A stretch of 34,391 bases of DNA from Syntrophomonadaceae bacterium (GTDB taxonomy: Bacteria > Bacillota > Syntrophomonadia > Syntrophomonadales > Syntrophomonadaceae), in contig JAAYCK010000039.1 in NCBI GenBank assembly GCA_012729835.1, forward strand, positions 1 through 34,391, in the 5' to 3' direction. The position numbers and the translations under genes are program-made. Every line of letters starts with the position of its first letter. The first letter of the stretch is position 1. Positions 2,480 to 12,454 of this stretch are shown here, piece after piece. The notes under the pieces are model-generated. The model was given only the letters and a program-made list of their open reading frames with translations, had not been told where the DNA came from and searched no databases.

Positions 2480-3529
2480 TCACTGCCGGCTAGACCACCT
2501 TAGGGGATCAATTCCCCTCGCCCTCAACCATTCGGCCGTGAATCCGGTAATGATCAACGGATGCTGTTTTATCTCTTGCAGGTCTTTTGCCGCATTCATT
2601 AAGAATACAGCTTTTAAAGAATAAAGAAATTCATCTGTCCAGCTATTCAGCTTATCTATACCTTCTCGTAAAAATATCTTCAAAAGTGGCCCAGCTATGC
2701 CGACCAGGTCGGCACCCATAGCCAGTGCACGGGAGGCATCCAGTGACGTACGGATTCCCCCCGAAGCAATTACGGTAAGCGGAAGACCAAGACTGCAGAT
2801 CTCGCCCAAACTGGCTGCACTAGGGATCCCCCATTCCAGCATTTCACTGGAATGACTGCCTCGACGCTGTGTCTCGATGGAGATAAAATTTGTGCCCCCG
2901 CTGCCACCTATATCAAAGTACCTTACGCCACAGTCATATAGTATACTTACACTCTCCCGGGACAAACCAAAGCCAACTTCCTTGGCAATCACCGGTACCG
3001 GGCTTTCATTAACGATGGCTTTTACATTATTCCTGACACTTCTGAAATCTCGATCTCCTTCGTGCATGGCTAATTCCTGCGGTATGTTGAAATGTAGCTG
3101 CAGGGCATCTGCCTCTATCATATTAATCGCTTTCAATGCATCACTGACACTGCTATTAGCCCCCACATTGGCAATAATCAAGCCGTCAGGATTTATCTCT
3201 CTTACAACTTTAAAGCTGTCTCTCAATCCAGGATCATCAAGCGCAATAGTCTGAGAACCTACTGCAATGGCTAAGCCGTATTTCTGGGCCAATTCTGCCA
3301 GACCACGGTTTATCCTCCGAGCTTGTTCTGTACCGCCAGTCAAGGCATTAATTATAACCGGATAAGACAATTCTTTGCTAATAAAATGTAAGCCAAGGTT
3401 TATATCTTCCATATTGAGACCTGGCACTGACTGGTTGATGAGATGCAGGTCAGAAAAACCTGTATTCAAGGGGCCATCTTTGGTTTTGGATGCGATATCG
3501 ATATGATCAGTTTTTCTTTGATCGCGAAT
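2480..3529 (-). CDS. fni: type 2 isopentenyl-diphosphate delta-isomerase (FMN), probable ATT start
   Basis: FMN-dependent isomerase interconverting isopentenyl and dimethylallyl diphosphate. Family motifs are clear: INALTGG, AVGSQ, LHFNIPQE, GDRDFR, KEVGFG, DIGGSGGTNF and IASGGI. The first standard start in frame is TTG at 3469, which begins MNTGFSDLHL. The frame is open upstream and encodes IRDQRKTDHIDIASKTKDGP, matching the conserved R..RK..HI substrate-binding N-terminus of this family (Bacillus Fni begins TRAERKRQHI, from memory). Between the in-frame stop at 3578-3580 and 3469 there is no ATG, GTG or TTG. The best start is ATT at 3527-3529, eight bases after GGGGAGG and overlapping the mobA stop (TAATT). 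This gives 349 residues, the usual family length. IspH in this window supplies the MEP-pathway products it would balance. Confidence 0.88.
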   Translation of the reverse strand: MRDQRKTDHIDIASKTKDGPLNTGFSDLHLINQSVPGLNMEDINLGLHFISKELSYPVIINALTGGTEQARRINRGLAELAQKYGLAIAVGSQTIALDDPGLRDSFKVVREINPDGLIIANVGANSSVSDALKAINMIEADALQLHFNIPQELAMHEGDRDFRSVRNNVKAIVNESPVPVIAKEVGFGLSRESVSILYDCGVRYFDIGGSGGTNFISIETQRRGSHSSEMLEWGIPSAASLGEICSLGLPLTVIASGGIRTSLDASRALAMGADLVGIAGPLLKIFLREGIDKLNSWTDEFLYSLKAVFLMNAAKDLQEIKQHPLIITGFTAEWLRARGIDPLRWSSRQ

Positions 3530-4125
3530 TACAACAACCTCCCCGCCATACTCCTGGCATGTTCCAATGCCTGCGGATCATTAACATTAAATAGTTGCTC
3601 ATGCAAAGGACCGAAAAGCCTTAGTTCTTGTTCATCAATAATCATTGAATTCAGGTCTTCCTCAACTATTCGGGTAAGTTTGAGCCGCTTGTCCTCCAAA
3701 TAGTTTTGGAAAATTGGCAGACACTTTTTTGAGTATACAGCGGCTGTAGGCTGGAGTGTAGAATTCATACGGGTCACCACACTGTCATAATCACCAATTA
3801 GACCGATCATATGATCCACCATTTTCATATTTATAAAGGGCATATCACACCCCAATACAAATACCGGATCGAATAAAGCTCGCTCTAGCGCAGCATGTAT
3901 TCCGGCCACCGGTCCGAGATAGGGAAATATATCCTGATATATCGGAAGGCCAAAACGGTGAAACAGATATGGTTCATTGCTGATAATGATTGTTTCCTCA
4001 AAACGGCGGGTAAACTTGTCGATGATGATTTCAATTACCTGCTTCCCGCCGATTTCGGCAAACGCTTTATGAAATTTCATGCGGGTGCTTTTACCACCAG
4101 CCAGTATGGCTCCAGTCGTCTTCAT
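3529..4125 (-). CDS. mobA: molybdenum cofactor guanylyltransferase
   Basis: Predicted MobA, 198 residues, which transfers GMP from GTP to molybdopterin to make the dinucleotide cofactor used by enzymes such as formate dehydrogenases. The N-terminus has the nucleotidyltransferase signature LAGGKSTRMKFHKAF, followed by GPVAGIHAAL and the metal-binding VLGCDMPFI. The G of the usual RMG is K here, a small deviation. ATG at 4125 is chosen because AGGA lies seven bases upstream; a TTG at 4140 would add five residues. No other molybdopterin gene is nearby. Its stop overlaps the proposed ATT start of fni, suggesting translational coupling between two unrelated pathways. Confidence 0.88.
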   Translation of the reverse strand: MKTTGAILAGGKSTRMKFHKAFAEIGGKQVIEIIIDKFTRRFEETIIISNEPYLFHRFGLPIYQDIFPYLGPVAGIHAALERALFDPVFVLGCDMPFINMKMVDHMIGLIGDYDSVVTRMNSTLQPTAAVYSKKCLPIFQNYLEDKRLKLTRIVEEDLNSMIIDEQELRLFGPLHEQLFNVNDPQALEHARSMAGRLL

Positions 4126-4499: not shown

Positions 4500-6530
4500 C
4501 TATTCTCCTTCCTGCTGATCCAGGTATTCTTCCACTTCTTCTTTTTCCTGGTCTTCGATTAAAGCGCGTATGGAAAGGCCTACTCTCTTTTCATCCGGGT
4601 CAATGCTAAGTATCTTTACCATTACCTTTTCGTTGATTGAAACTACGTCTTCGGGCTTTTCAATTCTGCGATTGGCCAACTGTGAAATATGAACCAATCC
4701 ATCCACACCGGGATCCAATTCAACAAATGCACCAAAAGGCGCTGTTCTAACCACTGTACCTTCGATAACGTCGCCCTCATTATATTTTTCAACAAAATTC
4801 TGCCAGGGGCTCTTCAAGAGTTTTTTGCGGCTAAGCGATACTCTTTCTTTCTCACGATCAAGACCGAGGATGTATACTTCTACTTCGTCGCCTTCATTCA
4901 TGATATCAGAAGGATGGTCAATCCTCCTGTGGTCCATCTCCGAAACATGGAGCAATCCTTCGTAACCACCCAGATCAATGAATGCACCATAATCAACCAG
5001 GCGCTTAATCTTACCGGTTCTAGTTTGCCCCTCTTCGATGTTCTCCCAGAAGCTCTTTTTCAGTTTATTTTTCTCTTCGGCTACCAGATCCTTACGTGAT
5101 AATACCACCTGAGAACCGCGCCGTTTATTGCGATTGAATTCTATTATTTTGAAATTGAGTACTCGACCGATGTATTCCTCCAGATTCCTGGCATAACCGT
5201 CTTCTACATGGGAAGCCGGCAAGAAGGCGACGATTCCTACGTCTACTAACAAACCGCCTTTTACGCTGTCAGTGACCGTACCATCTATTGTCTTGCCTTC
5301 CTTGTAATATTCCTCTAAACTATCGAGAACCTTTTGCGAGTCCACCTTTTTCTTGGACAAAAGAATAGTCCCGTCATCATCCCATTTAAGGACCAGTACT
5401 TCGATCTCATCACCGACTTTAACCAGATCCTTGCAGGAATCAATATCCTTTAAGGACATTTCGCGCTGGGGAATGATTCCCTCTGATTTTCCGCCTACAT
5501 CGACCATAACTTCATCATCCAGAACCTGAATAACACGTCCGGTCAATATGTCCCCTTTGCTGGGAGTTGCAAAATCGGCCATTTCAGCTTCCATTTTTGC
5601 AAATGACTCTTCCTGCTGCCCCTCTATGTTTTCCTGAACCGGATCTTGCACTACGTTTTCCGCTTCAGCCTGTTTTCCCGTTTCTGCCTGGTTGTTTTCC
5701 ATTTCCGTCATCCTTTCCACTACCTCCTTAATAATCCAATCCGGAGTTGAAGCTCCAGCTGTAATACCCACTTTGGCGGCATCCCGGAACCATTTAATAT
5801 CAATATCGCCAGAACTCTGAATCTGATAAGTATTAACTCCGGTATCCAAACACTCTTTGTAGAGAGTGGCTGTATTCGAACTCTTACTGTCACCGATCAC
5901 CAGCATTACGTCTACCTGGCTGCAAAGATCGCGGGCAGCCTTCTGCCTTAGTCTGGTAGCGGGACATATGGTATTGAAAACCCTCAGCTCTGGACACTTG
6001 CTTTTTAAGGCATCAACTACTCGTTCGAATTTCTTTTCATCCTTGGTAGTTTGAGAAACTACGGCCATTTTAGCGCTGATTTGCAGATCACATATTTGAT
6101 CAGGGTCGTTGACCACAATGGCCTGTTCATCACACCAACCTATCAGGGCTTGTACTTCTGGATGATCCCTGTCTCCAAAAACAACTATATCATACTTTTC
6201 ACTTAACGATGCCACAATTTCATGAACCTGCTTTACCAAGGGACAGGTGGCATCCTTTACAATCAAACCCAGCGTATCCGCATCAGAGATTACGCTAGGC
6301 GTCACCCCATGAGACCTGATAATGATCCCCGCCGGAATATCCTTTATGTCTCCCAGGGAATCGACCGAATCAATACCATAAGCATGAAGGTAATCGATCA
6401 CTGCTTGATTATGGACCAGCGGCCCCAGGGTATACCATTTCCGATCATCGGTAAAACAGTCCCGGGCCATATCAACTGCACGTTTGACGCCGGAACAAAA
6501 TCCAGCTTTGTTGGCCAAAATGGTATGCAA
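4500..6530 (-). CDS. ispH: IspH (HMBPP reductase) fused to four-domain ribosomal protein S1
   Basis: One 676-residue frame encodes two proteins. Residues 1-273 are 4-hydroxy-3-methylbut-2-enyl diphosphate reductase, the last MEP-pathway enzyme. Iron-sulfur ligands are C12 (GFCSGVKRA), C96 (DATCPLV) and C189 (ICPATRLRQ); active-site H40, H74, H123 and E125 are also visible. An acidic Glu/Gln-rich linker (about 274-325) leads to four S1 RNA-binding repeats (about 325-394, 411-480, 499-569, 584-655), the third and fourth with the strong pattern GAF.(D/E)L.G..GLLH(V/I)S. IspH-S1 fusions are known in several Clostridia, so this is not a sequencing artefact. The start is TTG at 6530; the preceding codon is a stop and GGGGTG lies upstream. 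The S1 part may act in translation or mRNA binding; it has fewer repeats than the six of E. coli S1. Confidence 0.92.
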   Translation of the reverse strand: MHTILANKAGFCSGVKRAVDMARDCFTDDRKWYTLGPLVHNQAVIDYLHAYGIDSVDSLGDIKDIPAGIIIRSHGVTPSVISDADTLGLIVKDATCPLVKQVHEIVASLSEKYDIVVFGDRDHPEVQALIGWCDEQAIVVNDPDQICDLQISAKMAVVSQTTKDEKKFERVVDALKSKCPELRVFNTICPATRLRQKAARDLCSQVDVMLVIGDSKSSNTATLYKECLDTGVNTYQIQSSGDIDIKWFRDAAKVGITAGASTPDWIIKEVVERMTEMENNQAETGKQAEAENVVQDPVQENIEGQQEESFAKMEAEMADFATPSKGDILTGRVIQVLDDEVMVDVGGKSEGIIPQREMSLKDIDSCKDLVKVGDEIEVLVLKWDDDGTILLSKKKVDSQKVLDSLEEYYKEGKTIDGTVTDSVKGGLLVDVGIVAFLPASHVEDGYARNLEEYIGRVLNFKIIEFNRNKRRGSQVVLSRKDLVAEEKNKLKKSFWENIEEGQTRTGKIKRLVDYGAFIDLGGYEGLLHVSEMDHRRIDHPSDIMNEGDEVEVYILGLDREKERVSLSRKKLLKSPWQNFVEKYNEGDVIEGTVVRTAPFGAFVELDPGVDGLVHISQLANRRIEKPEDVVSINEKVMVKILSIDPDEKRVGLSIRALIEDQEKEEVEEYLDQQEGE

Positions 6531-10398: not shown

Positions 10399-11409
10399 CT
10401 ATTCCTGCTTCATTGCAGCGTGCAGTTTTTGTACCTTATCCACCATCATACGGAAATTCTCGGGTGTCAATGATTGTGGACCATCAGACATCGCTTCACT
10501 AGGATTCTGGTGTACCTCTACAATCAAGCCGTCACAGCCGGCACCAACAGCAGCCATTGCCATCGGCGCTACCAGTTTCCATTTACCGGTTCCGTGGCTG
10601 GGATCGACGATAATCGGCAGATGGGTAAGCTGTTTGATGATGGGAACAGCGCTCAAGTCCAGGGTATTACGGGTGTAGTTTTCAAAGGTACGGATCCCCC
10701 GCTCGCACATGATCACCTGTTCGTTACCGCTGGATATGATATATTCGGCAGCCATAATCCATTCTTCAATGGTAGCGGAAGGTCCTCTCTTCAAGAGTAT
10801 TGGTTTATTACATTTCCCCAGTTCCCGTAAGAGGAAAAAGTTTTGCATGTTGCGTGCCCCTACCTGCATAACATCCACATAGGAGGCTACGATATCGATT
10901 ATACGCGGATCCATGATTTCTGACACTATCGGCAAGCCGGTTATCCTTCGCGCTTCGGCGAGTATCTTTAGACCCTCTTCCTCAAGTCCCTGGAAGGAGT
11001 AGGGTGAGGTGCGGGGCTTGAAGGCCCCCCCCCTGAGCATAGTGGCCCCGGCACTTTTAACCATCTGTGCGACCTCAAGGAACTTATCCCATCCTTCTAC
11101 TGCACAGGGGCCAGCTATTACTTGTATGCTGCCGTCACCAATAACCTGATCACCTACTCTTACGGTAGTAGGATTCGTTTTGAATTCCTTGGAAGCCATT
11201 TTAAAAGGCTGTACTATGGGTACAACTTTCTCCACTCCGGCCATGGTTTCGATTGCATCCATGATAGCCTGGGTTCTTTCTCCGATAGCACCAATAATGG
11301 TACGCTCAACACCTTTGGAAAGATGGACATTGAATCCCTTTTCCTCCAGTTTCTTTTCAACCATCTTGATCTGTTCTTCCGGAACAAGTCTTTCCATTAC
11401 GATGATCAT
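10399..11409 (-). CDS. aroF: 3-deoxy-7-phosphoheptulonate synthase with N-terminal FXD domain
   Basis: DAHP synthase of the KDO8P-synthase-like (type I beta) group, 336 residues, condensing phosphoenolpyruvate and erythrose-4-phosphate. Residues 1-70 form the ferredoxin-like regulatory domain (MIIVMERLVPEEQIKMVEKK). The barrel follows with AGPCAVEG, RGGAFKPRTSPYSFQG, LLKRG, CERGIRTFE, VDPSHGTGK and EVHQNP; Cys of GPC and His of DPSHGTG are metal/catalytic residues. ATG at 11409 follows AAGGAGG; an upstream start would add a non-family tail. It is preceded by a terminator-like hairpin and a tandem repeat, so expression is probably regulated at the RNA level. A shorter paralogue lies immediately upstream. 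Confidence 0.93.
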   Translation of the reverse strand: MIIVMERLVPEEQIKMVEKKLEEKGFNVHLSKGVERTIIGAIGERTQAIMDAIETMAGVEKVVPIVQPFKMASKEFKTNPTTVRVGDQVIGDGSIQVIAGPCAVEGWDKFLEVAQMVKSAGATMLRGGAFKPRTSPYSFQGLEEEGLKILAEARRITGLPIVSEIMDPRIIDIVASYVDVMQVGARNMQNFFLLRELGKCNKPILLKRGPSATIEEWIMAAEYIISSGNEQVIMCERGIRTFENYTRNTLDLSAVPIIKQLTHLPIIVDPSHGTGKWKLVAPMAMAAVGAGCDGLIVEVHQNPSEAMSDGPQSLTPENFRMMVDKVQKLHAAMKQE

Positions 11410-11448
11410 TTTGTAACCTCCTTTTCGTAGAGGTGAGAAAAACACAAA

Positions 11449-11617: not shown

Positions 11618-12454
11618 CTAATGCTGGATAAGCTTGTTCTGCAGTTGGGCTATGGCTTCAATTCTTGATAGCAGTTGAAGGTAATTCTCCGGGGTTAGTG
11701 ATTGTTTACCATCGGACAATGCCCTATCAGGGTCCTGGTGCACTTCTACCATCAAGCCATCAGCTCCGGCAGCAATAGCAGCAGCAGCCACCGGAGTTAC
11801 CATTCTCCATTTACCGGTGGCATGACTTGGATCAACAATAACCGGCAGATGTGATAGTTCCTTGGCCATGACCACGGCCCCGATATCAACAGTATTACGG
11901 GTATAGGTTTCAAAGGTCCGTATGCCGCGTTCACACAGAATAACCTGCCAATTACCACCGCTTAGCAAATACTCTGCCGCCAATAGCCATTCCTCAATAG
12001 TAGCCGACAGTCCCCTTTTCAACAGAACTGGTTTATTTACTCTGCCCAAAGCATCCAATAACGAATAGTTCTGCATATTACGACTTCCTACCTGAAAAAC
12101 ATCGACATGATCATATAGGCAATCGATGTCATGAAGATCCATAATTTCTGTTACTACCGGCAAGCCGGTAATCCTTCGGGCTTCATCCAATATCTGCAGA
12201 CCCTCTCTTCCCATTCCCTGAAAAGAATACGGGGAAGTCCTCGGCTTGAACAATCCGCCTCGCAGCATATTAGCTCCGCTTGCCTTAAGAATCTGTGCCA
12301 GTTCCAGGTACTGTTCAGGACTTTCTACAGCACAGGAACCGGCAATATTAGTGCAGTAGCCCTGCCCAACAAATACCGGTCTCCCCGGTCCTTCTATTTT
12401 GATTACGGTGTCTTCAGCTTTATAATCCCTGGATACCAGCTTAAAAGGCCTCAT
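11618..12454 (-). CDS. aroF: 3-deoxy-7-phosphoheptulonate synthase, catalytic domain only
   Basis: Second DAHP synthase, 278 residues, with the same barrel motifs as its neighbour: RGGLFKPRTSPYSFQG, LLKRG, CERGIRTFE, VDPSHATGK and EVHQDP. It lacks the N-terminal ferredoxin-like domain: it begins MRPFKLVSRDYK, aligning with residue 80 or so of the longer copy, exactly at the domain boundary. The usual AGPCAVE is AGSCAVES here, keeping the metal-ligand Cys but losing the Pro. A good AGGAGG before the ATG and an intact frame argue against a decayed copy. It may be insensitive to feedback through the missing domain. It is the first gene of the aro run (aroF-aroF-tyrA-aroA) and is divergent from the nitrilase gene. 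Confidence 0.92.
   Translation of the reverse strand: MRPFKLVSRDYKAEDTVIKIEGPGRPVFVGQGYCTNIAGSCAVESPEQYLELAQILKASGANMLRGGLFKPRTSPYSFQGMGREGLQILDEARRITGLPVVTEIMDLHDIDCLYDHVDVFQVGSRNMQNYSLLDALGRVNKPVLLKRGLSATIEEWLLAAEYLLSGGNWQVILCERGIRTFETYTRNTVDIGAVVMAKELSHLPVIVDPSHATGKWRMVTPVAAAAIAAGADGLMVEVHQDPDRALSDGKQSLTPENYLQLLSRIEAIAQLQNKLIQH

Follow-up and report, generated by a model that had tools for sequence, protein, structure and literature searches.

A conserved AUH codon as the probable translation start of fni in the order Syntrophomonadales

Introduction

The fni gene on the minus strand of a 34,391-nucleotide stretch of DNA from a Syntrophomonadaceae bacterium (contig JAAYCK010000039.1; hereafter, the window) appears to begin with the non-canonical codon ATT, and a comparison of start regions across the order confirmed from sequence that this start is conserved as a member of the class ATA, ATT or ATC (AUH). 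We consider it very probable that initiation at this codon is weak, is probably discriminated against by IF3, takes place on a strong Shine-Dalgarno (SD) sequence in coupling with the upstream gene mobA, and has been maintained by selection for a low Fni output. Few genes have a conserved non-canonical start, and tests exist for only a handful of them. The interchange of AUA, AUU and AUC across an entire order, hardly ever with AUG, thus amounts to a natural experiment, and it suggests that weak initiation itself can be selected. There is also a practical consequence, as gene finders restricted to ATG, GTG and TTG would truncate Fni or misplace its start throughout the order. The kind of start is known from infC, pcnB, ccpN, cvfC1 and sigR; the gene and the order-wide depth of conservation appear to be new, and a search limited to the open-access literature retrieved no report of fni with such a start.

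The fni start region in the window

Read from the ATT at 3527..3529 (all coordinates in this section are on the minus strand), fni occupies positions 2480..3529 and comprises 349 codons. Its upstream neighbour is mobA (3529..4125), a molybdenum cofactor guanylyltransferase-like gene that starts with ATG at 4125, and the final A of its stop codon TAA (3529..3531) doubles as the first base of the fni ATT, so that the two genes overlap by one base as TAATT. The SD sequence GGGGAGG (3538..3544) lies within the last mobA codons, 8 nt from the ATT. The fni frame is open between an upstream TGA and its own stop, which ends at 2480, and its upstream end reads TGA (3580-3578) TCC GCA GGC ATT GGA ACA TGC CAG GAG TAT GGC GGG GAG GTT GTT GTA ATT CGC GAT CAA AGA AAA. 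ATG, GTG and TTG are absent from this frame between the TGA and a TTG at 3469-3467, which is codon 21 of the reading from ATT. These coordinates bear out an earlier note on this DNA, which had described the TTG as the only standard start in a frame open to 3578-3580, placed the ATT eight bases past GGGGAGG and within TAATT, and given the product a length of 349 residues. Its central proposal, that translation starts at an AUU which overlaps the stop codon of mobA, likewise appears from the sequence to be the sole reading that fits.

The protein read from ATT matches the NCBIfam model for type 2 isopentenyl-diphosphate (IPP) isomerase, TIGR02151, over residues 4-328 with 358.5 bits, a full-length score above the cut-off of 281.3, and aligns from residue 2 with PDB entry 1p0k (E 1.6e-74), the isopentenyl-diphosphate delta-isomerase of B. 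subtilis. Residues 2-20 are RDQRKTDHIDIASK, and they contain the segment RDQRKTDHI (3499..3526). The earlier note had recognized in this segment the conserved R..RK..H N-terminus of the family, an assignment that holds for the whole order, with the RK..H motif at codon 5 in 58 of 58 fni loci; in the window the segment is encoded only in the reading from ATT 3529. By these features the window protein is a type 2 IPP isomerase (IDI-2/Fni), predicted to interconvert IPP and DMAPP with FMN.

Start codons and Shine-Dalgarno sequences across the order

We sampled 63 genomes of the order, covering Syntrophomonadaceae and neighbours, and read the start regions of all 58 fni loci that they contain (26 genera, three families); the named records among the relatives, all of them Syntrophomonadaceae, are Thermosyntropha lipolytica DSM 11003, a Thermosyntropha sp. 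and Syntrophomonadaceae MAGs. At the codon homologous to the window ATT, we found ATA in 33 loci, ATT in 13, ATC in 11, GTG in one and ATG in none. The expectation that the ATT would be conserved in relatives therefore holds for the AUH class (57/58 loci), but not for ATT itself (13/58). In the window, no canonical start fits the Fni N-terminus, and approximately 52 of the 58 loci lack any in-frame ATG, GTG or TTG between the upstream stop and the AUH site.

The constraint does not seem to be absolute, as three lineages have apparently shifted to a canonical start. The closest relative of the window genome (G001) has GTG at the site itself, a second genome (G013) reads ATG ATA, and a third (G025) reads ATG AGT ATT and has lost GGAGG, with initiation in the latter two probably at the ATG. 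In the third case (L049), an ATG was gained two codons upstream and GGAGG was lost, as if a strong SD with a weak codon had been swapped for a weak SD with AUG. Upstream in-frame ATGs elsewhere are poorly placed: a single nucleotide separates the ATG of G005 from GGAGG, and the ATG of G015, G048 and G051 overlaps or precedes the SD, so that AUH stays the better start in all four. G041 has an ATG at codon 4, 17 nt from its SD. Judged from sequence context, the probable starts among the 58 loci are about 55 AUH, two ATG and one GTG.

The SD sequence is conserved along with the codon. GGAGG precedes AUH with a spacer of 7-9 nt in 49 of the 58 loci (8 nt in 42, 7 nt in five and 9 nt in two), and SD sequences in most other families of the order are weaker, AAGAAGG-like motifs. 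One locus (L024) carries a two-codon insertion together with a new ATC that restores the 8-nt distance. Five single-sequence folds of the fni start region gave z values of -1.2 to +1.9 and revealed no shared RNA structure.

Alternative explanations

Since AUH comprises exactly the three isoleucine codons, a conserved internal isoleucine would look alike, and the codon might thus lie within a MobA-Fni fusion produced by programmed frameshifting or stop readthrough; that mobA stands ahead of fni in 57 of the 58 loci, and that the fni frame is often open for about 16 codons upstream, would agree with this. However, the frame of fni relative to mobA is +2 in 45 genomes, +1 in nine and 0 in three, and neither frameshifting nor readthrough can therefore generally join the two proteins. 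The junctions also have no common slippery site that we could see, a fusion would have no use for a perfect, constantly spaced SD, and an internal isoleucine would need an upstream start that is not available. In-frame stops moreover lie one to five codons upstream of AUH in several genomes. A stop stands two codons upstream in L047 (TAA ACC ATC) and L050 (TGA ACC ATT), where AUH is consequently the sole remaining start, and three to six codons upstream in L006, L035, L062 and L063. The fusion is thereby largely refuted, and we rate its probability as very low. Just as improbable is initiation at a downstream canonical codon to yield a shorter Fni. The window offers TTG 3469 as the first such codon, but its position differs by lineage, from codon 4 to beyond codon 80 (L005 and L024 have none within the first 80 codons), and mostly falls past the RK..H motif that all 58 loci retain. 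Because the TIGR02151 match begins at residue 4 of the ATT reading, a TTG start would cut off the conserved N-terminus, the RDQRKTDHI segment included, and the TTG was rejected as the start. An erroneous ATT in place of ATG, which the earlier note had named as a refuting case, might be suspected because the window comes from a draft assembly of 186 contigs. Yet no relative has ATG at the site (0/58), and AUH is present in independent genomes, among them three single-contig genomes (G004, G021 and G055) and the isolate T. lipolytica DSM 11003 (L033). A base-call or assembly error is accordingly refuted, and we assign it next to no probability. We infer from these comparisons that initiation takes place at the AUH codon.

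A different question is whether the codon has any regulatory meaning, as an AUH start fixed once could be sufficient thanks to the strong SD and the dispensability of Fni, and could persist by inertia. This neutral account draws on the facts that Fni can be lost, that a strong SD is able to compensate for a weak codon, and that a few lineages did move to ATG or GTG. Against it, AUG is a single third-base change away and was avoided. On an Fni tree made without the start codon, with changes counted in unambiguous rows, the third base changed at least 12 times among A, T and C and never to G, the first base being A throughout those changes. G makes up 26% of fourfold-degenerate third positions in these fni genes, and a simple hand calculation puts the chance of avoiding G at about 0.65 per change and about 0.006 for 12 changes, a rough figure given that there are about 12 changes, many weakly supported branches and one lineage that gained GTG. 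The overlap with mobA does not account for the missing G: in the TAATH class (-1; 16 genomes) the third base lies outside the stop codon, and in the ATAA class (-4; 17 genomes) ATGA would keep both functions equally well. The SD spacing has also been maintained for the AUH codon. We therefore regard neutral persistence as unlikely, though as carrying some weight, and these patterns suggest that selection keeps the weak AUH codon and disfavours AUG at fni.

Genome-wide controls

The mobA genes of the same loci served as a control and have a canonical start (ATG, GTG or TTG) in nearly all genomes. A scan of 447 ORFs from the window genome and a S. wolfei-like genome (G021) for GGAGG followed by a non-canonical codon, with no canonical start upstream, returned two strong-SD ATT candidates, both of them fni (one per genome), and one ATA candidate, an ABC-transporter ATPase gene. 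The idea that these genomes use AUH starts widely was thus rejected, as only these genes stood out among the 447 ORFs. As an observation in its own right, the ATPase gene (L146, around 9657 on the plus strand; about 1,069,657 in the S. wolfei-like genome) has GGGAGG, a 7-nt spacer and ATA as its apparent start, with the first canonical codon 21 codons further down.

This crude scan missed infC, probably since canonical codons come within a few codons of its start. The earlier note had likened the fni start to that of infC, and the comparison proved apt: in each of 30 genomes of the order (L113-L142), infC begins with ATC or ATT, never with the ATA that fni prefers, and the translation apparatus of the order evidently copes with AUH starts. 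The anticodon of the initiator tRNA is the ordinary CAU. A special AUA-reading initiator tRNA was considered and rejected, as the CGGGCTTATAACCCG matches in three genomes (L093, L095 and L096) give no tRNA with ARAGORN; the match in the window genome (L093) reads, by eye, as protein-coding and dnaA-like.

fni starts outside the order

In other families of the phylum, the fni loci that we examined mostly have canonical starts. Family f40 is the clear exception, with no canonical fni start in frame in any of the three genomes sampled (L075/L174 in G099, L192/L211 in G140 and L197/L212 in G175). Here, fni apparently starts with an ATA that forms an ATAA or ATAG overlap with the stop codon of the preceding gene. 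The neighbour is different from mobA and, by eye, ends in S1-type repeats. The f40 AUA start would either have arisen independently or be an older trait that other lineages lost.

Proposed mechanism and function

In the mechanism that we favour, the strong GGAGG at a nearly fixed distance of 8 nt, situated inside the end of mobA, would recruit the 30S subunit, and ribosomes just finishing mobA would probably assist initiation across the TAATH or AUAA overlap. The ordinary fMet-tRNA (CAU) would decode the AUU of fni by pairing at two of the three positions, and the mismatch at the third base would keep initiation weak and the Fni level low. IF3 discriminates against a third-base mismatch at the start codon. 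By analogy with other genes, IF3 would mediate the weak initiation at fni, which would be expected to be IF3-sensitive, and Fni output is likely to be low.

Low output is plausible on metabolic grounds. IspH, the last enzyme of the MEP pathway, makes both IPP and DMAPP, and with dxs present in 41 of 41 genomes tested, both compounds are supplied by this pathway. Additionally, five of the 63 genomes, including one at 93% completeness (G017), have no detectable copy of fni. Fni would hence be an accessory, dispensable balancing enzyme, for which low, coupled expression is plausible. A far more tentative extension, which we think improbable as it stands, is that infC and fni constitute a small IF3-sensing regulon in the order, in which the start codon would adjust the Fni level to growth state and the supply of IF3, and selection would have disfavoured AUG at fni for the order's depth; the f40 case is apparently separate.

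Comparison with known non-canonical starts

The closest parallel is infC, which in IF3 autoregulation combines, like fni, a conserved AUH codon (AUU, AUC or AUA) with a strong SD. However, the infC product is the discriminating factor itself and acts by feedback, whereas fni is a metabolic gene, and fni also uses AUA, which infC of the order does not. Within the Firmicutes, ccpN (AUA) and cvfC1 (AUU) of S. aureus and B. subtilis resemble fni in their conserved AUA or AUU start and strong SD (PMC13009471), but ccpN encodes a repressor and cvfC1 a small protein, while fni encodes a flavoenzyme, follows mobA with a stop/start overlap, and interchanges all three AUH codons. In S. aureus, natural AUU and AUA starts that follow strong extended SDs reach about 10% of the output from AUG, and ccpN up to 30% in rich medium (PMC13009471). 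In Streptomyces, sigR likewise combines a strong SD with a conserved non-canonical start, and repression by IF3 at its GTC start was tested and holds the protein low (PMC5472188). The sigR codon is GUC or GUU, the product is a sigma factor and the conservation spans a single genus; moreover, the effect of IF3 is experimental for sigR and by analogy for fni. Finally, the AUU start of E. coli pcnB, as cited in PMC13009471 (Binns and Masters 2002), limits the amount of one enzyme, as we propose for fni, although the gene and phylum differ.

Additional observations

The mobA start is apparently ATA or ATT in two genomes of genus g16 (L056 in G041 and L059 in G052) and ATG in their relatives, and may be real or a draft-genome error. 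Upstream of mobA-fni in the window lies a fused ispH-ribosomal protein S1 gene (4500-6530, minus strand; NF000907, 818 bits). Elsewhere in the window, two adjacent paralogous ORFs (10399-11445 and 11618-12454, minus strand) are DAHP synthase-like, as judged by eye from their translations.
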